Translations under genes and position numbers: made by a program
Assembly: GCA_032358255.1 (NCBI GenBank)
Contig: JAULBX010025109.1
Coordinates: 1-64,000 of the forward strand
Origin: Heterotrichella gracilis
Taxonomy: Eukaryota; Sar; Xanthophyceae; Tribonematales; Xanthonemataceae
Reading direction: 5' to 3'
DNA: 64,000 nucleotides
Part shown: positions 3,223-45,839 of the stretch, one piece after another
Layout: each line of letters starts with the position of its first letter
Position numbering within the stretch: the first letter of the stretch is position 1
Notes under the pieces: generated by a model
The model's input: the letters and a program-made list of their open reading frames with translations, nothing else
Database searches by the model: none
What the model was told of the DNA's origin: nothing

Positions 3223-5135
3223 CTACCTTTGTGCATCTTGGTATGTGCATCCTGATATGGCAAAACACATCGCAGGCGCACCTGCCACAGCGCCTGTGCC
3301 CGCACCGCCACTCCCCCTCCCAGCACCACGCTCCACCACCTCCTCCCCTGCACCCCCTGGCATGCCACCCGCCCTGCCCTGCTGCTGCGCCGCCGGCGCA
3401 CACACACCACCCGCACCCCGCTGTGCTGCACCCCCATTAGGGTTCCTGTGAGCACCCCGGCCAGCTGGCGCCTGGCTGGCAACCGCTTCTGTATCAAACA
3501 GCAAGGGCTGCATCAAGCTGCCAAAGCACGCAACCCGTGGGCCCTTAGCCGCATCCATTGTTGGGACTAGGCTGGGCTGCGCTGTGGCTGGACGCTGGGA
3601 GTAGCGGACGCCGAGCGGAAGGGGACGGGGCGGGTAAGGGTGGGGCAGGGGTTGTCCCTCCCCATTTCTGGCTGTGGCCCGCTTCCCTAATGCCCTAGGG
3701 AGGTACGCAGGTGCGCTTGCCGTACACCCTGCTGGGCGCGGCCACCGCTGGGAGAGCCTGGCAGACCCTGGTTGTTGCGCCTGTCCAAGCATGCCAAGAG
3801 CACCCTCCACACCGCCGCGTGACATACTTCCCCCTGGCAACACACCCCCACTAGGTGCGCCAGGTCCCTCCTCACATGGCTTTGTGGCGCGCTCCCCACT
3901 GGCTGCTGCTGCTGCTGCCGAGGCATAGCAGCTGACCTCCCCGCATCGCCTCGAGACCCACTCCCCCCTGGCTGTGAACCCCCACCAGTTGCGCAAGAAG
4001 AGCTCCTCGCATACCCTCCTGACGAGCTCCCCCCCCTAAATACCTCCATGAGCGTGCTGCCAGGGTGCTGCCTGGGTGCAAATTCGCCCCTTACCAGTGG
4101 TGGGGAAGCCACAGGGACTGGAGCTGAGGACGGGGATGCCACGGGGACTGGAGCTGAGGACGAGGAAGCCACAGGGACTTGGGGCTGAGAAGCCACAGGG
4201 ACCGGGGCTGGGGTTGGGAATGCCACATGGACTGGAGTTGAGGACGGGGATGCCACAGGGACTGGATCTGGGGCCTGGAATACCACAGGGACTGGAACTG
4301 GGGCCGAGGATGCCACAGGGACCGGAGCTGGGGACGAGGAAGGAAAAGGGACGGGGGTTGGGGCCTGCGCCAGCTGTGGGAGGTAGGCTGGAGCTCCATT
4401 CCCACCCTGCTGCTGAGTGAACGGAGCCCTTCGTGGGTCCCGTGACACGCAGGTCGTGGGGATGGGCTCCTGCGTAGCGAATGGGTGGTTGCTCTCCTCG
4501 AGCGCCTGCTGGATGTCCTCCAGGGAAAGAGGGTGGGTGCCATCCTCCAGTGCCTGCTGGAGCTGCTGCAGCGCCACGTCAGCAACCTTGTTTCCACCCG
4601 CCACCTGCCCATCCCCAATGGCCATGCTGTGCAAGGAGGTCCCCACACCAACCCCCGCTGCACCACTGGGGTGTGGGGACTCAGCTCCATCCCCAGCTCC
4701 ACCATCCCCGGATGTTGCAGCCGCCATGGCATGCTGCCGATCCAGTGCACTCATCATTGGCCCCGCGTCATTCCCTGCAGGCATCTTGCCGCGCGGGGAC
4801 CCGTTCCCAGCTCCATCCCCAGACGCTGGCGCCGCGGCTTGCATCCGGTCCTGGATGCGCATCTTGGCCGGGCGATCGCTGCTGCCCAATGTGGCGCCAG
4901 GGTCCAGATCCGTCAGTGGGCGCTTGGCAGCAGGGAGAAAGGGGGCGCCGAGTTTGGCCTCTTGGCGGTCTTGGCCCCTGGGAGGGATGAATCGCCGGGC
5001 GACCCCTGTTTGTTGCGTTCCTTGCGCTCGCTCCTGGGGCTTGGCAGGCTCCGGGTGGTGTTGAGATGTGGCCGCCCGGCCAGCTCGTCGCACACCGAAT
5101 GCAAGGGCACCCAAGCAAAGTCCCCTGCAAGCCAT
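3223..5135 (-). CDS. Disordered protein segment with PVPVAS-type repeats (uncertain exons)
   Basis: Two overlapping frames, 3687-5135 (482 codons) and 3223-3996, cover this stretch. The longer one has a charged N-terminal part with AKMRIQDRMQ, a helical segment VADVALQQLQQALEDG, and at about 4080-4370 a chain of near-repeats of the type P-V-P-V-A-S encoded by an 18-36 bp minisatellite; Q-runs follow. In the first 200 bases a different frame (4913-5194; DFAWVPLHSVCDELAGRP...SPRSERKERNKQGSP) looks at least as natural, so an intron or frame change is likely. Composition suggests a disordered region of a nuclear protein. It may belong to the Tudor-like gene upstream. Function unknown. Confidence 0.4.
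4080..4370 (-). repeat. Coding minisatellite (Pro-Val-Ala-Ser repeats)
   Basis: On the + strand this reads as repeated GG.ATGCCACAGGGACTGGAG-like units with small changes. On the - strand the open frame gives P-V-P-V-A-S and variants (PVPVASPSS, PVPVVFQ, TPVHVAF). Units differ by substitutions but keep frame, suggesting selection on the protein. Confidence 0.65.
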
Positions 5136-23452: not shown

Positions 23453-26400
23453 TCAATAGATGTCCATGCCTACTGCGTGGGTGTGCCTCGATGTTGCGCA
23501 CACCGCATCCAGCACCTTCTCCACTTGCTTCTGGCTCTGTACATGGGGAGGGATGGCCACATCCACAAGCATGTGGTTTATGGTCTGCACACGGGAAAAC
23601 AGCTGTCAGTGGCACAAATTTGGCACAAATCTGATGAAACCCCACACGTACAATACTGCATATCCATATGTCTTATGCTAATTTGGGAGATGCGCGCCTC
23701 CTCGACCATGGCCCCCATTCTCGCTCACCTCAACCATGGTCCCCTTTCTTGCTCACATATGCAGGCCACAGCTTCATGTGCATTGGCAGGTTGACCAGGA
23801 ACCGCCTGAGCAGGTCCTCGATCTTTAGGGTTCTCCTAAAAGCCAAACTCTAAACCCGCACCCCACACCCTAAATTAGGTAGCTACAAAAACCTGCCAAA
23901 CCCTAACCCCACACCCTACCCACAAACCCTACACCCCCAGCGCACCTTCATGTGCATGGGCAAGTTGAGCAGGAACCACGGGTGCAGCATGATGTCGGCG
24001 ATGGTGATACGATCCTCGGGCTTGAGTGTGAGCATGCGCTTGAGCAGGTCCTCACACTCTGGCGTGATGCCCACAGGGATGTGGTAGTCGCCCATCATGA
24101 TGCGCGGGTACACCATGGCCAACCGCGAGATGTGCTGGACCGACTCGTCGCCCTTGCGATAAAAGGGGAACCTGGGAGGAAAAAGAAATGATATATTATT
24201 ACAATGAAATTTATTCCATGAGTTGATGTTACATCATGGCCAACCGCGAGATGTGCTGCACCGACTCGTCGCCCTTGCGGAAAAGGGGAACCTGGGAGGA
24301 AAATGGAAATGTTACATTACTGGAATGAAAATACTATTCAATCAATCGAATGTTACATCATGGCCAGCCACAAGGTGTACTGCATGAACTCGTCCCCTTG
24401 CGGTACAAGGGGAACCTGGCAACAGCCCAAACACATAAGCATGCAAGGAGAATAAACACACTTACTCTATACGAAGAAAGAGCATAGATGGCCTTTCATG
24501 AGAGGCGAGAACACCATGCTCAGTTGGGATGGGCTCAGGGTACTCCTGCTGCCCTGGGCGGCAAACCCTAAACCCTAACCCCGTTACCCTTGACACCAAT
24601 TGCGTGCCTTGAAAGCAGAAACTTGCATTCCACAAGGTGCAGATGAATCCTAAACCCTAACCTTGCAAACCACAACGTGTAGACAAACTAATCTACATGT
24701 CGCGAGTGCAGACTTACTGGCCACAAACGAAGATGTAGAGGAGCACGCCGCACGCCCACACATCCACAGCTTTCCCATCATAGCTGTCACAGGGGGTGAG
24801 CACTTCAGGCGCCACATAGTCTGGTGTGCCGCCATGGGACTTGGGCATCGAGTCAAAGTACTCTGCATCATACAAGATCTGATTAAAAGGGAAGGGAATC
24901 AGTGGCATAAACATCCATCACCTATCACCCGACAGGGCTGTGGCGGGCTGTTCATCATTGCTCTTCTCTTTTATATTCAACCACCCATGGCTACATGGTG
25001 TTTACCTCCCCCAATTGCCCACCCAGTCATTGGTGTATGCTCAAGGATTGGACCACGAGGTCAAGGATTTCATGATTCACAATGGAGGCACAGCATTGCC
25101 TGTTTTCCATGAACCTTTGTCAGACAATCTGATTAGCATGAAAATGCAGTAAGCAGCCCAACTGGTTGGCCACTATCTGCTTCACTGAATAGTACCAAAC
25201 TGGCATTGGCTCTTGGACTGGGTGAGGCATACACAGCATGCTAATCTGGCTTCAAAGCTGGAATGCACATACTTTTCCTTCCCTACTTACCATTTTTCGA
25301 GTAGCCAAAATCGCAGATCTTGAGCAGGGGCAGGGGCCTGGAGTTGTCCAGCAGGATGTTGTCGAGCTTGATGTCCCGGTTTGCCACCCCTTTCTTGTGA
25401 CAAAAGTCCAGGCCGATCACCAGCTGCTGGAAGAACCAGCGCGCATAGGACTCGTTCAGGCCCTTGCCCACCAGCTTGTGCTGGGCGTGTAGGAAGTAAT
25501 CGCACATATCACCGCCCTGCATGATTATACTACCGTAAGGAAAATGCAAAAGTATATACATGTCATCTTTCGTATTAAAAATTGGATGGACTCAAATACA
25601 CCTCAGTACATGCCCATGTCACTGCCCTGAATAACACCAAGAGCGCAAGGCTGGTCAAGCGTTGAAGCATGAGTACACCACAATGGCGCCACATAGGTCA
25701 GCCAAGCAGCGACCCAATTGGGCATAGGCAGTGCATTGCTCACACTGTTGAGCATTTGCAACAGGAATAACGAGGTGGCAGCTTGCATGTTTCACGTTTC
25801 AGAGCGTGAGTTTGGTTTCTAGGTCCAACTGACCTGCATGTACTCCATCACAATCGCCAGCTTGTTCTGGTGCTGGAACACCCCGCAGAACTGCACGATG
25901 TGTGGGTGCACCACCAGCATGCAGTGATGCAAATCTCATGGACCATTCCCACCACCACATTTCCCACCACCACCAGCACCACTCCCACCACCACAGCCAA
26001 AGCCACCACCACCATCGACTCTCACCTGCATGTACTCCATTACAATCGCCAGCTCGTTCTGGTGCTGGAACACCTCGTAGAACTGCACAATGTGTGGGTG
26101 CACCACCAGCATGCGGTGGTTCAGGATCTCACGCGCCAGCCGCTGCTTCATGGCCGATTTGACCCGCACAAACTTGATGGCTACATACTCCCTGGTGGTG
26201 ATGTCCATGGCCAGCTTCACCATGGCGGTGGCGCCTGTGAGCAAAACTTAGGGTTTAGGGTTTAAAGGTGGGCCATGGCTGTGGCGCCTGTGGACAAGGA
26301 TTCAGATTTAAGGTTTGGCCATGGCTGTGGCGCCTGTGGACAAATTTTGGGGTTAGGGATTTGCCCATGCTTGTGACTGCTGTGCACAAGGTTTAGGGTT

Positions 26401-33310: not shown

Positions 33311-36300
33311 ATGTCGACAGTGGCTGTCGAGGCTGTGGCGGTGGTAACCGACCAAGCTGCCTCGCCGCAGCCAGCGGCGCTGGCCCCGCCTATCAACTTC
33401 TTCTATGCCAGGCTGCATGACAGCATTCGGACCGAGCTGGACGCCCTCAGTGGCAAGGTCTCGGACTTGGAGCCCGCCACCGAGGAAGGGGAGCTTGTAG
33501 GCAAGCTGCAGGACCTTCAGGAGAGATACCTGTTCCTTGAGCAGGTGTACAAGTACCACAGCTCGGTGGAGGACGAGGTGGGTGGTCGTATTTCGTATAT
33601 GCATGTGGTATGGAGGTATGGGTGGGGCTGTGCCAACGGGGGCTTAACGAGGTGGGTGTTCATATTTCATATATGCATGTGGTATGGAGGTATGGGTGGG
33701 GCTGTGTGCCAACGGGGGCTTAACGAGGGTAGCTGAGTAGCGGGTGGAGGACGAGGTGGGTGGTCGTAATCTAGGACATGCATATGCATAATGGGTATGG
33801 GAGTGGCTGTAGCAACGGGGTAGCAGCGTAACGAGGGTAGCTGAGTAGTGGGTGGAGCAGGGTTGGATGCAAAGTGTGTTAAAACTTGAAAGCAGGTATC
33901 ACAGGTCGGGTAGAGGGCGAGGTGGGTGTGGGTGGAAGTGGGCACTTTGTACTATTTACCACTGTGGGTGTGGTAGGGGCTGTGGCAGCGGGGGTCCATA
34001 CACAGTTGGGTACAGTTTTAAAGCGGGTTTATGGTTGAAGGGCTCACGTTGTTGTCACTTTTCAAGCTTGAAAGGTTGTCCAACCCAATGCATGCATATG
34101 GCAGTACCCTACCCCCCAGAAGCTTTCACGCTGTGCCCCTCCCCACCCCCTGCAATAGTGGGCCAAACCCTAAAACCCAAATCCTCCCCACCCTACCCTA
34201 TCTAGCGGGTGCCCCTGCACCATTCTTAGCACACACGAGAGTGGATTGGGGAAAGGTCACCGCCGCATACCCTACACAGGCACCTTAGGTGACGTGTGCT
34301 ACCACACCTGAGACGCGCACCTAGCACACACACCCACCTGAAATAAGCACAGGCGTATTGCGTCCGGGCCAGGTGGCTGGCTTTGTTTTTTTAAGTGCAC
34401 TCGCTTCGCCATGTGCACACTGGGCTCTGGACAGTCGGTTGTGCCGCGGTCGCCACGTTGTTGGCCCGTTGCACACACTGTGTTGGCGCGAACGGGTTAA
34501 CAGTCACCCAATAGCAGGTCTAGCAGCAACCGCTCACCCCCACCACGGCGTCCTCTCCCCCCTCCCAGCCTTACATACCCCCCCCTCCCCCACCCCTTGC
34601 AGGTTGTCTACCCTGCGCTTGACACCAAGGTGAAGAACGTGACCCTGGCATACAGCGTGGAGCACGAGGATGAGGTGAGGAGCGGACGGCAGAAAGGGGG
34701 GTCCGGAGGCGTGCGGACCACCGTTTCTATACCCTCAACCCAATCCCCCCTACAGCATGGACCATACGACTGAGTTACGGCGCACTTCCCTACCAAAGCC
34801 CTCCTTTTAGACGGGCCTGTTTGAGCAGCTTTTGCAGCTCCTATCTGCAGCTCCTATTTGCAGCTCCTATTCCCAGCTCTTGCACCCAGTCGGGCAAGCG
34901 CCGCGCCGCCACAATGCGCCAGCTGGCACTCAAAAGTGACCCACCGGAGATTAAAACCATGCGGAAACCCTGCCAATACCATGCAGAAACACTTACCAAC
35001 ACCCACACGCGCGCGCTCCCTTACTTTGCAGAAGCGCCCGTTTGAGCAGCTCTCGCAGCTCCTGTTGGCAGCGCTCACCCAAAGCGCTGCGCGGCCGATG
35101 GGTGCAGTTGGGTATCAAAATTGACCCACCGAGGACCCCTCAAAACCCTGCCAAAACCCTGCAGAAACCCCTCCCATTCCCCACACACGTGCCCCTTCTC
35201 AATGCCTCCCTCCCTTTGCAGGAGCGCCTGTTCGAACAGCTCTCGCAGCTCCTATCCGCAGCCCTCACCCAGTCGGGCAAGCGCCGCGCGGCCACGGTGC
35301 GCCAGCTGGCATGCAAAGTGGAGGAGATCCACACCACTTTGCGCCAGCACCTGGCGAAAGAGGAGGAGCAGCTTTTCCCCTTGCTGCTGCAGCACTTCAC
35401 GCACGCTGAGCAGGCCTCGCTGGTGGCACAGTTTCTGTGCTGCATCCCCCTTGGGGGTGTGGAGCGCGTGCTGGGGTGGCTGAAGCGGGGGGTGCCGGTG
35501 GCGGAGCAGCAGGGGCTGGCGGAGCAGGTGGGTGGGAGACCCTAGGGAAGGGTTTGGGGGATTGTTAGGGTAAACCATAGGGTGGCTGAAGCGGGGGGTG
35601 CCGGTGGCGTAGCAGCAGGGGCTGGCGGAGCAGGTGGGGGGTAGACCCTAGGGAAGGGGTTGGGGGATTGCTAGGGTAACCTCTGGGGTGGTGGCGGAGT
35701 AGCAGTGCCTGGTAGAGCAGGTGGGTAGTTGTGTGGGACGGAACCCCGCGGTAGGGTTGAGGGAAGGGCCCTGGGTGTACACCCCAGGTTGGATATACCC
35801 TAGTGGGAAGGTTGGGCGGCGATCCTGCTTTTGCACCATCAGGCTGTGGCCCCCGCCCACCACCACCACCCGCCCACCCACCCAAAGGTTCCACCCCTAA
35901 CCCCTGACATTTGAAATATTGTCAGCGTGACGTCAACACCCCAGGAACCCTGGCGCTAATCCCCTGCCTTTAACTCGCAGGTCCGCACAGTTGTACCTGA
36001 CAGGCTGCTGCTGCAGCTGCTGATGGTGTGGCTGGCACCCACCACACCACCACCACCATCACCACCATCGACAACAGCACCAGCCACCGGTGGAGATGGT
36101 CGGGAGGATGGTATTGGGGGGCGGGAGGGGAAGCGGCGCAGGGTGGAGGCACCAGGGGATGATGCGGATGGTGGTGGGTGCGATGTGTGTGACCAGGGGT
36201 GCGACAAGGGGGGCGATGGCAGCCAGCCGCCGCTGCAGGTGCGTGGGTGGGGGGTGAGGGGTGTTGGAGGGGTAAAGGCAGCATTGCTGTGCAGGATTGG

Positions 36301-39300
36301 AATTAACCATCCACTTTTTCCTTGGACCCACATGAAGTGTTGTATCGTTGCATTGTGGGTTTGGGGATGCTGGGTGAGTGCATGCGGCCAAGACTGGCAT
36401 CGTCCATCATGCCCTAATCTAGACCCTCCCTCCTTTGTTCCAATCAAAGCGGGACTTTCTGTCAGCACAACCCGTCCCTTTGTCCAAATTCATGATAAAG
36501 CCTAAACCCCATCCTCCCCAGGAGCTGTTCTACCTGCACGGCGCCATCCGCCAGGCATTGGAGGAGTTTGTGGAGGGCGCGCGGCAGCTTGCGGGCCAGG
36601 CGGTGGTCAGCGGGCCGCACCTTGCTCGGCTGGTGGAGCGCCACAGGTTCCTGCGCAGCGTGTGCTCCTGCCACAGGTAGGGGCCCCAAAGCCCTGTTCG
36701 TTTCGTGCCTGACCTGGCTCGCGGGCTTGCCGTGCACCTGGCGGGCGCACGCGACGCATGTCACGAGGATCACTCGGAAGCACACCGCAGAACCCTAGTA
36801 GGACTTGCCCTTAAGCCCTCCCAGGACTTCAAATGGACCCTGACACAAACCCTGCCATCGCAGCGCGCCTGAGGACCAGGTTGCCTTACCCGTCATCTCA
36901 TCCCTGCCATCCCACCATGGGGTGGCTGGCGCATGACAAACATGCATCTTGGGATGCACCAAAATCCCAGAACATTCCAACCCCAAACCCTAACAAACCC
37001 CAACACAACCCTAACACAGACCCTACCCTTACCGCAGCGCGTCTGAGGACCAGGTTGTGTTCCCCGTCATCTCACCAAAGCCCTGGTATATTCCACCCCA
37101 AAACCCTAACAAAACCCCAACACAACCCTAACACAGACCCTAACCTTCCCGCAGCGCGTCTGAGGACCAGGTTGTGTTCCCCGTCATCTCCTCCCTGCCA
37201 TCCCACCTTGCTGTGCGGCTGGCGGGTGCGTGCGACACGTGCCACAAGGACCACTCGGGGGAAGCTGCACTGTTTGAGGAGCTGGGGAGGCTGCTGGGGG
37301 ATGTGCGGGCAAGCGCACGGTAAGCATGTGCTTTCTTTTTTCATCCAAGGAAATATTTGGGAAAATGCAAGTACATTCGCATGAAAAACTCGTTTATAAA
37401 TTTCCCGGGGGAGGCTGCTGGGGGATGTGCGGGCAAGCGCGCGGTAAGCGCATGGTTGCTATGTTAATAAGTAATCTGGTGGTTTGCATAGAGAAATGTC
37501 AGTGCATTCACACGAATATACAAGGAACCATTACATAAACGTCCCTACGCAATAAAGGCGGGGCGCCTTGTGCCCCCTTTTGCTGGGTTTCACTCACCGC
37601 TCACCCCCAACCCTCCCCCACCCCAGGCGAGGCGCTCGTGAGGCGGGTGCCCTTACTGCTGAGCTGCTGCGCTGCGCCGACGGCGTGCGTGCCACCATCA
37701 ACCGCCACATGGCGATGGAGGAGGCAGAGCTGCTGCCGGTGCTGCAGGTGGGGCATGGGGGTGGGTGGGGGGTTGCCAGTGGGGGGAGGGTATGGTGGGT
37801 ACTGGATGCTGGGGGTGAGGGTTTGCTTACGGGGTTTTGAATGGTATTTTGATGGGTATAGGGGATTTGAGGTCGCCACCATCAACTGCCACATGGTGAT
37901 GGCAGGGGTGGAGCTGCCGCCGGTGCTGCCGGTGTGTCTCGAGGGGGTTGTTGTTTTAGTGGTAGGGGGGGCGGGGTACCACTGGTGGCGGGAACCCTAG
38001 CAATTCTTATCACCCAAACCCTGATCACCCCACTCAAAACCTCACCCACCACCCGCAGGCCGAGCTGTGCAGCACCCAGCAGCGCGCAATGGTGTGGCGC
38101 ACCCTGCGCTCCATGCCCCTGCGCCTGCTGGAGCGGGTGCTGCCGTGGCTGGCCAGGGGGTTAAGCGAGGGTCAGGCGGGGAGGATGCTTGCCAACATGC
38201 GGCTGGCGGCTCCCGAGGGTGACCAAGTGCTGGTGCAGCTTTTGATACAGTGGGCGGAGGGGGGGCGCGGGGCGGGGGTCGAGGCGGATGGGGAGGTGGG
38301 AGGGGAGAGCACGGTGAGCTTGGATTTGCAATTGAAGTCGGTGGTTGGGATTTTTGTGGTTGTGTGATGGATATTTAGTTGCATGGATGCTGGTTTACAT
38401 TTGGCTGGGGGTGGCTGATGGCTGTTTAAAGGTTTGGGGTCTTGGCTGAGGTACATTGGGTGGGGAGGTTTCTGGAGGGTTGTTTAGGTTCCCATTCTTG
38501 CGTCAATTTTGTGTGTGAGCGCATTTACCTGCAATGGAAATGTGGTGGGAACCATACTTTTGTACTTGTGGACGCACTGTAGTACTGTGTAGGGTTGCGT
38601 GTGGCTGGCATTACCCCCACCACGAGCGCATGGCTTTCTGTATTTGATTGTTGAGGTCCTAGTATTGTTGAGCATGCATGTACTTGTGGGGCGCACTTCT
38701 AAGTACAACATAGGATTGCGTGTGCACCTGGCGTTTTGCTCGTAAGAAACTTATGCAACATCCCCCCACCCTCCACCATTCCCCTTTCAACACCCCACCT
38801 CCCTCCCCCACCCCTCCCAGGAGCGCCAGGACAGCAGCACCCACGCCACCACCTCTGGCCACCACCACCCCTCACCCCCCACACCCACAGCCACAGCCAC
38901 AGCCGCTGTGGAGGCGGGGGCCAACCCCATCGACCACATCTTCCAATTCCACAAGGCGCTCAGGAGGGAGTTGAGCCATTTGGAGAGGGGGGCAGTGCGC
39001 TTGGAGGCGGATATGGACGACGCGCCTGAGAAAACCCTAGAGCAGGTGCGTGGTGGGGCTTCTCATAGCTCTCATCTCTTACCTACATGCTTTCTGTATG
39101 CCTGCTGTGTACACCATTAATACCTTTTTGGTTTGTGCACTTTCTTCACCCTGATACTCCACAGAAGATGGAGCCCCTCAGTTCCAATATTACTGCCAAA
39201 CCCTAATGAAAACCCTAACCTCCTCCACAGGAGATCCAAGCCCTCCAGGGCCGCTTCCATTTCCTGTGGGGCATTTACCGAGCCCACTCCCGCGCCGAGG

Positions 39301-42300
39301 ATGACATTGTGTTCCCTGCATTGGAGGCAAAAGAGACTCTCATCAATGTTAGCCATGCATACACCTTGGACCACCAGCAGGAGGAGCAGCTGTTTGCAGA
39401 TCTGGACCAGGTAAGGAAAACCCTAGTGAAAACCCTAGACATGTCCCAGACCCTAGAGAAGCCCTATGTTTAACCCTGAGGCACGCATGCACCTTTGACC
39501 ATCAGCAGGAGGAGCAGCTGTTTGCAGACCTGGACGGAAAAGGTTGCGCAGCTGTGCGCGTCAGCCCTGAAACCCCGACCACCTCCACACCCCACATGTC
39601 TGAAACACCACCTCAACGACCCCCACAGATGTTTAAAGACCTGCGCGCCGCCCCCTCCCCCGCCGCCCGCACCCCCCTGGTGCGCTCCCTGCGCCGCCAC
39701 TGCGCAGCGGTGCGCGCCAGCCTGGAGACCCACGTGCGGGCCGAGGAAAAGGAGCTGTGGCCTCTGTTTGCCGAGCACTTTGAGGCCGAGGAGCAGCGCC
39801 AGCTGGTGGGGCTGATCATCGGGCACACGGGGGCGGAGGTGCTGCAGACCATGATCCCATGGGTGACGAGTACGTGGGGGGGGTGGGGGATGGATGGTGG
39901 TGTGTGGGTTTGGGCTGTTGTGGGTGTTGGGGGAAGAGGAACGTTCTGCAGGGTTTCGGGAGTTGGTGGGGGGCGGGGCTTGATGGTTGGGCACAGGGGG
40001 GCGGAGGGTGCTCGAGACCATGATCCCCTGGGTGACGAGGGGTGGGGGTGGGGAGGGGGGAATAGGGGGAGGATGAGTGGTTGTCTGTGTGTGGGGAACG
40101 GAATTATTTTCTGACACACAGACCTACCGTCCACAATTGAAATTGTGATGTTGAATTATGGATCTGAAGCGCTTGGTCAATGGGCACTGTGGGGTGGATG
40201 TGCTTGAGGGGTGGTGTGTGTGTGGGGGGGGGGGGGGGTACTGGGGTGGTGGGGAGGGTGGCACCTCTGCGAATGATTAGGATTGGTGAATAGTGTTAAA
40301 ATTAGGATGCAGTGCCATCAAAGTAGCTGCCAGTCCCCTGCCATGCGCACCACCCAGCTCCGCCTCGCCAAACCTGGGAACCTTGCAGGGTTTTGCTAAG
40401 GTTTTGCAACGCGCTGACAAGCCCAACCCCATCCGTTCAGGTTCGATTACCAGTGATGAGCAGGAGGCCATGATGATCAGCATCCGATCAGCCACGCGCA
40501 ACACCATGTTTGATCGGTGGCTGGATGCAACCATCCAGGGAGGGGGGGAGTCGCCAAAGGGACAGGTGCGTGGCTAGTCATTAAACCCCTTCAAAACCCT
40601 AGCTGAGACCCTGTGCACAGCCCTGTGTAACCTCCTCTCAGAAACCCTGTGTCAAATTGCAACAGGGAACCTGTACGCATCCTTTTTGCCATATTTGGTC
40701 GGTGCCTGGATGCCACCATCCAGGAAAGGGGAGTGGCCAAAGGGACAGGTGTGTGGGCCACCCTAAGTCTCTTGTGCACACACCTTAAAGCAATCTCTGT
40801 GCAAATCCTATCAGAAATACCCTGCGCTAGCGCTAGCCCCTGACAAGGACCCCGAACCCAGCCCTCTCAACCCCGCCCCGACATGCACCCCCCCTCATTC
40901 CCCTGCCCTCTCAACTCCACCCGCCTCACCCACCACCCACCACCCACCACCCACTCACCCGCAGGACGACCCCGCCGCCGACCACACCACCGGGCGCCAG
41001 GCAGTGTTGACCGATGTCGCGCACTATCTGTCGGGTGGGGGCGAGCCCGCACCCAGCGCGCAACCCGCACCCCCCGATGCTAGTGGCTTGGTGGCGGATG
41101 ATTCCTGCTTCAGACCGGGGTGGGAGGACATTTTCAGGATGAACCAGAAGCAGCTGGAGGTGCGTGGGCGGCGGCGTGGGCATCTAGGGTTTAAGGGTTT
41201 GGATCGGAGCGGGAGGATATTTGTGGGTTGGTACAGAAAGTGGCTGGAGGTGCATTGGGATGTGGGTGTGGGGGGGTGGGAGGTCTAGAATTGTCAGGTG
41301 ACCGGTTTGTGGGAGGCCAAGTTCGAATTCAGGGTGAATCAGCAGCAGCTGGGGGTGCAATGGGGGGGTTGAGGTGGTGGTGGCGGTGGTGTGGATTGGG
41401 AGGGTGGGGCGAGTAGGGTTTCAGGGTGCATGCTGGGGGTGGGAATAATGACATAAGACAGTGGGAGGTGCGATGGAGGTCGAGGTGGGTTTTGGGGACA
41501 TCATCAGGATGTGCTAGGAGCGCCACCCTTTACCCTGACAGATACCCACGGTTGTGATTACCCCAACATATTACCTCACTCTTCATGCCCCTTGGCAATA
41601 TGTGTCCAACGACCTCACCCTTGAGCTGCAGTGCAGGGCATACCTGACCATAACCCCTACAAGAGACCATACCAAATACCCTAACAAGAGAACCTACATG
41701 AGACCCTAACAAGTACCCTACCCAAACCCTAACAGATCCCTCCGCATGCAGGCCGCTGTGCGACGTGTGTCCAACGACACCACCCTTGAGCCGCAGCGCA
41801 AGGCTTACCTCATCCAGAACATCATGACGTCGCGATACATCGTGGCCCAGCAGCGCAGGATGATGGGGGGCGGGGAGGGCGCGGGGCTTGGGGTGAGGCT
41901 GGTGGGGATTGGAGGTGGTGGTGGCGGTGGTGAGCGCATGTGGTCTTTTCTAGTGGTGTGGGTGTAGGTGCTTGTTGTGGATGGGGACATTAAAACCCTT
42001 TTGTAGGGTTGAATACACCTGACCTGGTGACCTGGCGGGAACGCAAAATTTGCCAACTTGACCTGTTAAGCGAGCATGCCCCACACTCCCCTCTTCATTA
42101 AAACCCTAGTAAAACCCCAACCCCCATCCCCCGCCTGCAGGCGCCCATCCCCACCGCGCAGCCCCCCCACCCCGCCTCCGCCCCCCCACCCCCCACCGCC
42201 ACCGGCGGCTGCCCCCACTACCGCCGCCACTGCCGCCTGGTGGCCCCATGCTGCGGGGGTGTGTTCACATGTCGCCTGTGCCATGATGAGGTGGAGGACC

Positions 42301-44125
42301 ACCGCATGGATCGCTATGCGGTCACTGAGATGGTGTGCAACCTGTGTGGGGTGCGCCAGCCGGTGGCAGGTGGGTGGATAGGTTTTGGTGGATGGGGGGG
42401 TCAGAAGCTTCATATGTAGGGACAAAATGTGTGTCCATCGCGAGATTAGGAGCGCCCTGTTGTGTTTATCAGTTCCCTGAAACCCTGGCAATGTCTAATT
42501 TTACGTTCCATAACGATGGTGTGCAAACCTGTGCGGGGGGCGGCAGCCGGTGGCAGGTGGGTGGCTGGGTTGTGGTGGGTGGTGATGATGGTGGTGGGAA
42601 TGTGAAAGGAGGGTGGTGGTATGTGGGTGTGATGGTGTGGGGTGGGGCAGCCGGTGGCAGGTGGGTGGATTGGGTGGGGGGTGGAGGAGTTGGGTGTTTG
42701 GGGGCATTGTCTTTGAGGGACAAGACAATGTATCGATTGTGAGAACTGGGAGCGCCCTGCTTTGGCAGAAGTTCATTGGAACCCTACCATTATTCGATGC
42801 CACGTTCCATTTCGCTCGGAGTGAAGCATTAAAGACACCCTTGCACCCCAAGCACCCAGAAACCCTAATCAACCTCCCCAACCTCCTGCAGGCAAGTGCG
42901 CCTCCTGCGCCGCCTCCCTGGCCCACTACTATTGCTCCATCTGCCACCTGTTCGACGACGACCCCACCCACCCCATCTACCACTGTCCCTTCTGCAACGT
43001 GTGCCGGAGGGGCAAGGGCCTGGGCGAGGACTTTTTCCACTGCATGGACTGCAACGCCTGCATGAGCGTGAGCCTGTTCAGGCGCCACAGGTGCCGGGAG
43101 CGCAGCCTGCAGGAGAACTGCCCGGTGTGCAGCGAGGGCATGTTCGACAGCAGCGCGCCGATCAAGGTAGGGTGTTATGTGGGAACTGGCAGGGTTTTGA
43201 TGGTGGGGGTTTTGATAGGGTTTTGGTAGGGTCTCGGTTGGTTTTGGGTAGGGTTGGATAGGGTTTGGTAGGGGCTGCAGGGAGCGCAGCCTGCAGGAGA
43301 ACTGCCCGGTGTGCAGCGAGGGCATGTTTGACAGCAGCGCGCCAATCAAGGTGCGGAGGGTAATCCTGGTTTGGTGGGGTTTTTAAATGCGTTGGCAGGG
43401 GTTTGCTGGGGTTGCTGTAGGGTTTCAATTGGGTATCAGTAGGTTTTGGTAGGGGCTTGCAATGAGCGGAGGCTGGAAGGTGCGAAGGGTTTTCTGTAGG
43501 GTTTCAGTGGGGTTTTATTGGAGTTTTGACAGGAGGTGCAGGGAGAGGAGGCTGCATGAGAAATGCCTATGTGCTGGGAGAAGGGAGAGGAGGACTTGAC
43601 GCTTTCCCAGCCCCCTGTTTGCCCCTTACAGGATCTTCCCTGCGGCCACTTCATGCACTCGCAGTGCTGCTCAGCCTACACGCATTACCCACGCCACCTT
43701 GCTGTACCCTTAATCATTCAGACAGAATAATAAATAGCAACATGCGGAAAAAAGAGGACTAACAGTTGAAGTGTTACACTTCTGCAAAATATGCAATGTG
43801 GGAAATAGAGTGTACCAACTTTTTTGCAACCCCTATTCTGCCACAGGAGCTCCCTTGCGGCCACTTCATGCACTCGCACTGCTTCTCAGCCTACACGCAC
43901 TACAACTACGCCTGCCCTGTGTGCTTCAAGTCCATGGGGGACCTGTCGGTGTACTGGAAGATGCTCGACAGCCTGCTGGCATCGGAGGAGACCCTGCCAG
44001 TGCAGTACGCCAGCCGGGTGCAGACCATCCTGTGCAACGACTGCGGCAGCACGGGCGCCGCGCCCTTCCACTTTGTGTATCACAAGTGCCCCGACTGCCA
44101 GTCCTACAACACGCGCGTCAAGTAG
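33311..44125 (+). CDS. BTS: BRUTUS-type hemerythrin E3 ubiquitin ligase
   Basis: Seventeen exons (33311-33577, 34603-34674, 35222-35527, 35981-36238, 36522-36676, 37155-37319, 37627-37747, 38059-38313, 38821-39045, 39231-39410, 39629-39869, 40441-40565, 40965-41159, 41752-41892, 42141-42369, 42892-43166, 43847-44125) sum to 3489 nt, 1162 aa. Three hemerythrin/HHE domains keep their metal ligands: [86 protein letters not shown]. Next come a CHY zinc finger ([15 protein letters not shown]), a CTCHY region ([14 protein letters not shown]), a RING ([21 protein letters not shown]) and a C-terminal zinc ribbon ([20 protein letters not shown]). In plants BRUTUS senses iron and ubiquitinates bHLH regulators of iron uptake; that role is inferred. 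Plant proteins are slightly longer (about 1250 aa). Confidence 0.95.
33578..33860 (+). repeat. Three repeats derived from the end of BRUTUS exon 1
   Basis: The exon end GGACGAGGTGGGTGGTCGTA is copied with downstream intron (GCATGTGGTATGGAGGTATG, then GGGCTTAACGAGG) in units of about 80-100 bp, the last at about 33745-33850. It is intron growth from a donor-spanning tandem duplication. Confidence 0.75.
34812..35110 (+). repeat. Two decayed copies of BRUTUS exon 3 start
   Basis: 34812-34932 and 35032-35110 copy the start of exon 35222-35527 ([20 protein letters not shown]); the first also carries a CAGCTCCTATYYGCAGCTCC slippage. The second retains an intact acceptor TTTGCAG. Both soon lose frame. 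Confidence 0.85.
35576..35727 (+). repeat. Two decayed copies of BRUTUS exon 3 end
   Basis: 35576-35640 copies GGTGGCTGAAGCGGGGGGTG through the donor GAGCAG/GTGGG with a stop where GCGGAG became GCGTAG. 35684-35725 is an older copy. Confidence 0.85.
36708..37447 (+). repeat. Four decayed copies around BRUTUS exon 6
   Basis: 36708-36780 copies an internal part ([18 protein letters not shown] against [18 protein letters not shown]). 36859-36925 and 37036-37080 copy the acceptor and exon start (CGCGTCTGAGGACCAGGTTG). 37403-37447 copies the exon end and donor. The real exon is 37155-37319. Confidence 0.85.
37869..41645 (+). repeat. Decayed end/start copies of BRUTUS exons 7 and 10-14
   Basis: End copies 3' of the parent exon: 37869-37935 (exon 7), 39480-39537 (exon 10), 39985-40045 (exon 11), 40681-40752 (exon 12), 41206-41255 and 41318-41362 (exon 13). 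A start copy 5' of exon 14 is at 41548-41645 (GTGTCCAACGAC.TCACCCTT). Each is direct and partial. Confidence 0.8.
40215..40239 (+). repeat. (GT)n/poly-G tract
   Basis: A short TGTGTGTG tract followed by about fifteen G. It is intronic, in the intron before BRUTUS exon 12. Confidence 0.9.
42515..43692 (+). repeat. Copies of BRUTUS exons 15-17 edges, one nearly identical
   Basis: 42515-42563 and 42630-42666 copy the end of exon 15. 43276-43354 copies the last 74 nt of exon 16 with only about three differences, including the first RING cysteines ([18 protein letters not shown]). 43626-43692 copies the start of exon 17 ([18 protein letters not shown]). An acceptor-like CTGCAG precedes the exon 16 copy, but splicing there would be out of phase. 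Confidence 0.9.
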
Positions 44126-44224
44126 GGAGTGTGCGGCACCCGTTCAGGGGATTTGTGTGTGTACCCCGCTTGCCACAGGTACAGCAGGCGGGGTCAAGTA
44201 GGTTAGGTCTGGGTTTTCCCTGCA

Positions 44225-44294
44225 GGGCCGAATGTCAGTAAACCCTTAAGCAAACCCTCTAGGGTTTGCTTAAGGGTTTACTGACAGTCGGCCC
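44225..44294. other. Perfectly folded hairpin just downstream of BRUTUS
   Basis: Two 34-nt arms (44225-44258 and 44261-44294) are inverse complements with one mismatch and a 2-nt spacer, and include CAGTAAACCCTTAAGCAAAC. It starts 100 nt after the BRUTUS stop and so probably lies in its 3' UTR. Copied BRUTUS C-terminal exon sequence (44284-44342, CTGCCAGTCCTACAAC) begins inside its right arm. It could be a 3'-UTR stem, a replication-slippage product or a small-RNA source. Confidence 0.9.
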
Positions 44295-45839
44295 TGTCCC
44301 ACAAGTGGTCGCGCCTGCCAGTCCTACAACTTGCGGGTCAGGTGAAGTGGGGGTGGAGTTGGTGTTCTGTAGGGCGTTCTGTTGGGTTGCTATTTGTTTG
44401 CCACAGCCCAGGGAGGACCGCAGCAGGTGGATTTTTGTCTGTTTGGTCCTCTTCTGCTATGCTTCCTGGCTTTAGTGTATCCTGCAGGGTTTTTGTTTGT
44501 TTGTGTATCAGACTCCCCGCCTGTGGTGCATTATGTGCATGGAGTACCGTAGTGGGGTCTTCTGCAGATCCGATGCAGGTGTGCATGCCAGCTATGGTTT
44601 TATTTAGGGTTTGTCAATGACCGAAAAAGGGTTGTGGGAGTCGGCAACTGGCGAGAGGCATCAAATATGTGGTTAGGCGGGGTTGTACAGGAAGTTTTTT
44701 CAAAGAGCATATGTACTATCAAATAGGATGGGGGTCATGGCATCACAGCCTTGAAATATCATATGTGGGTAGGCTATGCAGGGACTTATGAGGCGCGCGG
44801 ATGGCAGGGCGCACTTTCTGCAGCGGCTGTAATACTAATTTGCAACACGTTGTGTTGATGGATCAGACATGCTGTGCGGCCTCCAGGAGGAGGCAAGGAC
44901 CTAGCAAGTTGACAACATTGTCAGGGGGGTCACAGTACATGCGAGTATGTGCGTGGGGTCTTCAAAGTTTGTCCTAACATCCCGTGCACTGCACACTGTT
45001 AGTATCCGGGTTTACTGTATTCTTATTTTTGCATTGTTATTACGAATGTGCTTTGGCGCCTCAGTGACACCCAGTTTCTTAATCCCTGCTTTGTATTACA
45101 TGAGCTCTTAGATTGAAAATTTGGTCCTCAAGGGTTTGGCACCCCATCTGAAACGGATTGAGTGGGGTGGGGCGGGGCAGGCATTTCGCCAGTTTGGAAC
45201 GTGACCCAGCGCAATTGTACTCTGCAACTTACAACCAGTACAGGTGGTCACCACGAGTCCTTACGAAAGTCAATGAGTCATACATTACCAAATACATTTG
45301 CTGATTTGATTTGTATAACTCATCAGTGTCCACCTATGCGTGGCCCCCAGGGCAAGAGTGTCACACTGGCGCATTAGTGTTGGCCATAGGATAGGTTAAA
45401 CTAAATTGCTGACCCTGCGATGCGCATGGCGCCAAGAAAATGCCTAAAATAGTAGATCATCATGTGACATTGAGTTGTATACCCCGTAAGAAGGGCTCTA
45501 CCTTCCCCCGCAGATATAGCTCTTAGATTCAGGAATCTATCAAAGTTTGTTTAACAGAACCTGGCTGCTATGGTTACTCGTGGACAACTTCACTGGCAGT
45601 GCCACATAAATGCAGAGGTCACTGGCCGCTTGACAGCTTTGAAATGAAAGTGGCATGCCCAATGCATTCAGTGCAATTTGCTCACTAGTGAGGCTTGGAC
45701 GTGGTGCATACCCTGATAATATCCACTCTTTCATCATAGCCAGGCATGGCCATCTCGCTCACTTGATTGTGTGACAAATACTACTGCCATTGAGGGCTCA
45801 AGCACTGCTCCAGACAACCACGTATCAGCGATCGCAGTG

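Follow-up and report, generated by a model that had tools for sequence, protein, structure and literature searches.

The window analysed here, a stretch of 64,000 nucleotides (nt) from the alga Heterotrichella gracilis (contig JAULBX010025109.1), carries a BRUTUS/HRZ-type gene whose introns hold many partial copies of the neighbouring exons (Table 1). In our manual model of the gene all 16 introns run from GT to AG, and in Pfam the protein contains three hemerythrin stretches along with the zf-CHY, RING_2 and zinc_ribbon_6 domains. A first-pass annotation of this DNA had counted about twenty such copies, all direct. By self-BLAST there are 23 local exon-intron matches, every one of them (23/23) in direct orientation, and the copy always lies in the intron adjoining its source exon. 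Copies are seen in 12 of the 16 introns, those numbered 4, 8, 9 and 14 being free of them. An additional match, between 38251 and 41864, joins sites 3.6 kb apart and looks low-complexity, while the seven inverted matches in the same self-BLAST consist of six more than 1 kb apart and one that is self-palindromic. Compared with a phage collection, the BRUTUS region produced no match.

The annotation had also proposed a rule of position, by which copies 5′ of an exon hold the acceptor and exon start and copies 3′ of it hold the exon end and donor. Four of the 23 BRUTUS copies fall short of the junction (34860-34934, 36726-36777, 39545-39575 and 41601-41654), and that at 39479-39535 ends 3 nt before it; all of these nevertheless keep to the expected side. 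The edge pattern recurs even where there is no splice site, in a copy of the last coding bases placed 3′ of the stop codon. Between the coding end and that copy lies a 36-nt hairpin (44223-44296), its arms 97% complementary and its core telomere-like (AAACCCTTAAGCAAACCCT / AGGGTTTGCTTAAGGGTTT).

Table 1. The BRUTUS/HRZ-type gene and the exon copies in and beside its introns (window coordinates)
Feature	Position	Strand	Remarks
BRUTUS/HRZ-type gene	33311..44125	+	17 exons, 1162 amino acids, no internal stop (manual model)
Intron 1, head-to-tail pair	33573..33728	+	unit 74 nt, 94% identical; starts with last 5 bases of exon 1 plus donor
Intron 1, two more donor-type copies of exon 1 end	33743..33928	+	from 33743; 33893-33928
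Intron 2, acceptor-type copy of exon 3 start	34799..34934	+	degenerate; two alignment pieces
Intron 2, second acceptor-type copy of exon 3 start	35016..35096	+	true exon start 35222
Intron 3, two donor-type copies of exon 3 end	35580..35726	+	first within head-to-tail 106-nt unit
Intron 5, exon 6 internal fragment	36726..36777	+	no acceptor; breaks rule
Intron 5, two acceptor-type copies of exon 6 start	36837..37074	+	second within 116-nt unit with CCCTAA-like sequence
Intron 6, donor-type copy of exon 6 end	37408..37449	+	97.6%; 82 nt from exon copy
Intron 7, donor-type copy of exon 7 end	37875..37934	+
Intron 10, stretch between exon 10 end and its copy	39411..39478	+	with AAACCCTAG repeats
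Intron 10, donor-side copy of exon 10 end	39479..39535	+	3 nt short of junction
Intron 10, weak match to exon 11 interior	39545..39575	+	breaks rule
Intron 11, donor-type copy of exon 11 end	39972..40053	+
Intron 12, donor-type copy of exon 12 end	40689..40756	+
Intron 13, donor-type copy of exon 13 end	41328..41358	+
Intron 13, copy of exon 14 start region	41601..41654	+	begins 14 nt inside exon; then CCCTAA-like tract 41647-41732
Intron 15, two donor-type copies of exon 15 end	42515..42684	+
Intron 16, stretch between exon 16 and its copy	43169..43275	+	degenerate, GGGTTT-like
Intron 16, donor-type copy of exon 16 end	43276..43352	+	72/75 exon columns identical
Intron 16, acceptor-type copy of exon 17 start	43628..43688	+
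Copy of last coding bases (44081-44123)	44300..44343	+	3′ of stop codon; edge pattern without splice site

The window is part of a eukaryotic assembly of 68.5 Mb in 903 contigs, from which 29 stretches of 10 kb were drawn. Twenty-six of these, together with the window, make up a 324-kb sample. The remaining three (L003, L012 and L016; 30 kb), AT-rich and lacking the algal 4-mer profile, served as controls from within the assembly. These lie on contigs C1, C100 and C180, which are probably non-algal sequence; their GC content is 0.35-0.38 and long open frames extend across most of L003 and L016. Genes were predicted with a simple finder trained, unsupervised and without RNA input, on the sample sequences. 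It gets 15 of the 17 BRUTUS exons exactly right, makes no prediction in the control stretches and calls some intron copies exons. With its BRUTUS prediction replaced by the manual model, the sample contains 76 genes and 521 exons. Two comparisons were made, with a model that over-predicts and with gene models slid by -120, -80, +80 and +120 nt. Low-complexity matches were removed before pairs were counted.

At spacings of 60-600 nt the sample holds 216 direct pairs against 10 inverted ones, with a further 10 inverted pairs at 20-60 nt, the range where hairpins fall. In the control stretches direct pairs are absent at 20-1000 nt, and a single one occurs at 1000-2000 nt. Density is uneven, six of the 26 sampled stretches being without any pair and the richest having 20. 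Start-to-start distances of direct pairs (offsets of 30-600) look bimodal, with peaks near 105 and 195 nt and none below 60 nt; second-order copies in arrays may contribute in part to this shape. By class, 132 of the direct pairs are exon-intron, 43 intron-only, 22 exonic on both sides, 14 exon-intergenic and five intergenic. The 22 comprise partly intron copies miscalled as exons and partly a repetitive coding stretch, a tandem repeat within a predicted proline-rich coding exon at 4099-4363 of the window; several of the 14 sit at locus ends, where genes are cut. The finder also calls an extra 57-nt exon (25834-25890) in the kinase gene of the window, where an exon end is copied in frame; this may be either a decoy or a tandem exon that is spliced.

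The positional rule holds across the sample. Among the 132 exon-intron pairs, 115 contain the junction near the copy, 15 are internal to the exon, one contains the far junction and one both. In the slid models near and far are about equal (23:21, 19:16, 16:23 and 16:19, in the order given above), whereas the over-predicting model still yields 111 near, 14 internal, one both, one mixed and none far. The other genes that the annotation had named behave like BRUTUS, and five genes with Pfam support give 32 near, six internal, no far, one exon-exon and 10 other. Pfam supports the kinase, MDR/ADH, nucleotide-sugar transporter and M28 genes; the adenylyltransferase gene, whose label we take from its GGTFDRLHAGH motif, and the membrane protein gene have no Pfam hit. 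The pattern is thus general within the sample and not confined to BRUTUS.

Equally frequent matches to unrelated exons, which the annotation had seen as telling against its proposal, are not observed. When 470 exons were searched (71 low-complexity hits removed), matches fell in the adjacent intron in 93 direct cases and one inverted, in another intron of the same gene in two, in exons of the gene in 37, elsewhere within 1 kb in 17, elsewhere in the stretch in 26 (14 direct, 12 inverted) and at other loci in eight. Chance or unrelated-exon matches do not account for the pattern. These counts also bear on the idea that a break in an intron is filled by copying a nearby exon edge, through synthesis-dependent strand annealing, with telomeric filler added. 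Such proximal copies, of median length 147 bp, are described in vertebrates (PMC2671141; here, as with the other papers cited, excerpts of the source are drawn upon), and the 15 exon-internal pairs favour a capture of this kind. Random capture should, however, bring in far ends and other exons as well, and the single far pair and the two matches in other introns, set beside 93 in adjacent ones, make it a decidedly improbable source.

That the pattern is produced by the assembly or by the gene models is scarcely credible. The finder is home-made, with the training limits given above, and some intron copies do enter its predictions as exons; against this stand the exact recovery of most BRUTUS exons, the persistence of the pattern in Pfam-supported genes and under another model, the absence of pairs at 20-1000 nt from the control contigs, and the state of the copies themselves. 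Assembly duplicates are an unlikely source because the copies differ from the exons by 10-25% and are decaying neutrally. Polarity, on the other hand, says nothing of how the copies arose: it is the necessary geometry of any duplication that spans a junction and so cannot identify the mechanism.

The neutral decay is clear from the differences between copy and exon, which in exon-intron columns amount to 0.110, 0.106 and 0.188 at codon positions 1, 2 and 3. The figure for intron-intron columns is 0.189, taken over junction pairs that have 20 or more of them, and for intron-only pairs it is 0.137, all these rates being underestimates in absolute terms since the aligned parts were selected for similarity. 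Gaps in the exon part are divisible by three in seven of 67 cases. This combination of codon-position and gap patterns is that of one constrained and one free copy, so that the intron copies do not look translated, in agreement with the first-pass suggestion that function is kept by the copy still attached to the exon while the other turns into intron. Alternative or tandem exons, for which coding constraint on the copy would be expected, were rejected on the same pattern. Selective loss of decoy splice sites was likewise considered and left no sign, GT being retained in 53 of 57 copies, a figure possibly biased by alignment ends, and AG in 36 of 45. Introns that carry either a junction copy or a duplication confined to intron sequence have a median length of 478 nt (n=89), and those without have one of 256 nt (n=348), although longer introns also offer more room for copies to be detected.

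The proposal that these are tandem duplications across a junction stands as regards the junction but not as regards a simple head-to-tail arrangement. Taking one pair for each of 144 clusters, the copies are separated by at most 5 nt in 32, by 6-19 nt in eight and by at least 20 nt in 104, where copy length has quartiles of 43, 59.5 and 84 nt. Among the most similar pairs, 39 with at least 86% identity over at least 40 nt and an offset below 260, nine are adjacent and 30 have a spacer of at least 25 nt. Separated copies, telomere-enriched inserts and a bias towards exon edges are observations that go beyond the first-pass annotation.

It might still be that ordinary small head-to-tail duplications, arising by slippage or unequal exchange anywhere in genes, lie behind all of this, with selection purging the exonic ones and the spacers being the faster-diverged intron halves of the units. 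The adjacent clusters agree with it, some of them very similar (97% for L026 7762/7883), as does the divergence of intron parts at about twice that of codon positions 1-2 of the exon copies; and the BRUTUS exon 16 pair can be aligned through its spacer at low identity (84/131 intron columns). Yet in donor-type pairs with at least 80% identity and an intron part of at most 15 nt, the next 30 nt show only background likeness in 25 of 28, exceeding the 95th percentile of background in three, and young spacers can be pure telomere repeat that is absent outside the copies. We therefore consider this explanation unlikely, if the least so of the alternatives.

Young telomere-repeat spacers cleanly bounded by copies occur at L028 5531/5599, L028 4814/4892 and L027 8647/8741; the insert at L028 5574-5598, for example, reads TGTTTAGGGTTTAGGGTTTACTTAT. 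TTTAGGG is taken as the telomere unit of this genome because six contigs open, within 7 bases of the start, with perfect CCCTAAA arrays in chromosome-end orientation, and the assembly encodes a telomerase RNA-binding domain; there are also CCCTAAA arrays further from the contig starts, of which at least one is internal (on C120, a contig of 104,654 nt). As a specific test we counted exact runs of at least 11 nt in TTTAGGG register. Spacers contain 12 in 8.5 kb (1.41/kb) and head-to-tail units 12 in 3.7 kb (3.25/kb), while copies contain five in 13.4 kb (0.37/kb), outer flanks nine in 17.0 kb (0.53/kb) and introns without copies 23 in 101.6 kb (0.23/kb). Spacers thus exceed copy-free introns sixfold and head-to-tail units 14-fold, and none of 19 scrambled units gives more than one run in spacers, head-to-tail units, copies or flanks, or more than four in copy-free introns. 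Telomere repeat marks the sequence between copies.

Other measures of telomere content are less specific. A lenient score of at least 10 is reached by 37 of 104 spacers, but for the 19 scrambled units the median is 19 spacers and the maximum 32. Direct repeats flank telomere tracts in 46 of 162 cases, compared with 10/66 to 28/82 for five scrambled units, so this signal is partly specific. Targeted insertion had been suggested by tracts that hug the junctions, at a median edge distance of 18 nt rather than the uniform 81, but scrambled or related units give 13-25 and GGTGGTG gives 1. The argument was withdrawn because intron ends are generally G-rich and C-rich: predicted introns pass from 35% G in their first tenth to 37% C in their last, and their commonest 7-mers overall are AAACCCT and AACCCTA.

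Telomere-like tracts could instead have been present in the introns beforehand and, as fragile or recombinogenic sites, have triggered duplication of their surroundings. Exact AAACCCT/AGGGTTT does average 6.3/kb in 101 introns with copies against 1.3/kb in 341 without, and the flanks are mildly enriched in telomere runs over copy-free introns. The runs are, though, denser in spacers and head-to-tail units than in flanks and copies, and we regard this order of events as quite unlikely. Introner elements were also considered and rejected: the same element would be expected in many introns, whereas 66 of about 70 direct hits in the window lie within 3 kb and a 154-nt spacer, the only one searched, matched itself alone and is single-copy in the genome.

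The duplications are not placed at random with respect to exons. Counted over junction plus intron-only pairs and with copy length as the unit, random placement predicts a junction-spanning share of 0.23 among pairs of at least 90% identity, where 16 of 28 are observed (p=9e-5), and other identity classes show an excess too. With the whole offset as the unit the excess is weak, a junction to intron-only ratio of 1.08 being expected and 22:15 found in the youngest class. Slid models give junction shares of 0.37-0.45 against 0.68 in the real models, an intermediate figure computed by hand. Clusters with a pair of at least 88% identity comprise 28 junction, seven intron-only, five exon-exon, three exon-intergenic and one intergenic. 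Among copies with at least 80% identity and a spacer of at least 15 nt, those of donor type have medians of 37 exon and 8.5 intron bases, with more exon in 29 of 34 (p=4e-5); those of acceptor type have 40 and 22, with more exon in 10 of 15, which is not significant. Copies therefore favour exon edges over random placement and at donors are centred on the exon. Selection against insertions in exons accounts for the sparing of exon interiors, not for that of intron interiors; an exonic preference of breaks and the survival of edge events alone would together yield the bias.

We lean towards an origin in the repair of staggered breaks, by which exon edges would be duplicated, sometimes with telomeric filler, in a variant of known processes. 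On the evidence of the sequences, we infer a break across an exon edge whose two ends are staggered by roughly 40-80 nt. Both ends would be filled in and joined, extra DNA including telomere repeat at times being caught or added between them, so that the exon edge and its splice site would come to stand on both sides of an insert. Function would remain with the copy still joined to the body of the exon; the other would pass into the intron, lengthening it, and decay neutrally. Some structures would afterwards grow into head-to-tail arrays in which copy and insert are repeated together. Repair of this kind, with fill-in, fits the direct orientation, the length and the adjacency of the copies. 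Telomerase is known to extend telomeric 3′ overhangs. In mouse cells, CST-Pol alpha fill-in of 3′ overhangs of 43-50 nt leads to small tandem duplications, and CST acts on 3′ overhangs at telomeres (PMC8355091). Given these two activities on telomeric overhangs, telomeric filler would be natural.

Several results weigh against this account. Telomere runs of at least 11 nt are confined to a minority, 11 of the 104 spacers and 11 of the 32 head-to-tail units; the other 93 spacers lack one (33 of 39 among the young). The hugging of junctions by telomere-like tracts, recurring as it does with scrambled units, is no telomere evidence. Priming by telomerase predicts G-rich repeat nearer the left copy, and this failed (14 left and 21 right of 35, p=0.31), making capture of telomeric DNA as likely as its synthesis. 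For acceptor-type copies the case for an end near the junction is thin: of six pairs that include little intron, three go on matching past it. Finally, nothing in breaks staggered at random would lead one to expect the exon-edge bias. The ends of donor-type copies lie some 9 nt beyond the donor and those of acceptor-type copies some 22-29 nt ahead of the acceptor, close to stretches bound by U1 and U2AF, from which a coupling to transcription or splicing could be imagined. A bolder view, which we hold to be rather improbable, is that a repair route preferring exon edges, perhaps coupled in this way, is a main source of intron sequence in the alga, and that new splicing signals come from telomere repeat added along the way. 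Were it true, CCCTAAA would act as pyrimidine tract and branch-site-like sequence, and GGG runs after donors as splicing signals.

Repair of staggered breaks has relatives among described systems, as far as the excerpts go. Interstitial telomeric sequences are likewise short internal telomere inserts read as break repair, some with a duplicated target (Nergadze 2007, PMC2246262; Santagostino 2020, PMC7215372). Duplication accompanies a minority of these, six of 130 rodent, four of 25 primate and three of 66 horse loci, plus two complex horse cases, and the share of human loci in introns fits random placement (PMC2246262, PMC7215372); in the alga, it is the duplication of exon edges that defines the structures, and telomere repeat can be recognised in only a minority of the inserts. 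The CST-Pol alpha duplications (Schimmel 2021, PMC8355091) resemble ours in their length of tens of nt and direct orientation, but follow nuclease-induced breaks and leave adjacent copies, whereas those of the alga are natural, mostly enclose intervening DNA and are biased to exon edges. Proximal duplications attributed to repair (Pace 2009, PMC2671141) are local copies of about 150 bp that include partial exons, though few exon/intron copies are given there (four partial exon/intron donors) and the excerpt reports no positional rule. In intron gain by tandem duplication of an AGGT-containing exon (Yenerall and Zhou 2012, PMC3443670; Drosophila, PMC2891723) an exon is also duplicated and one copy turned to intron, but a new intron arises inside an exon, while in the alga existing introns are lengthened. 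We looked for such gains as two copies in which donor and acceptor occupy one and the same position; among 14 flank alignments, drawn from 404 introns, there was none. At L018 a predicted donor is crossed by one copy of the pair 3883-3978/4047-4142 and a predicted acceptor by the other, the register being off by 9 nt and AAACCCTAAA lying between, and this is the sole possible intron gain in the sample; an alignment in L020 is about 5 nt out of register and reaches neither splice site, and the remainder are further out. Among the matches listed in a search of open-licence titles and abstract openings, a scope outside which most subscription papers lie, no description was found of separated copies, telomeric inserts and exon-edge bias in combination.

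The lengthening of introns is usually discussed in terms of transposons. Exon-edge duplications enclosing inserted DNA show a concrete way for introns to grow, and a single genome here keeps many stages of this different route together with a built-in neutral clock, each event leaving a copy of an exon whose decay can be read codon by codon. Intron growth, the survival of decoy splice sites and the repair pathway itself thereby become directly testable. Such copies can pass as exons, a caution for gene predictors, and introns may be linked to telomere-type repair.

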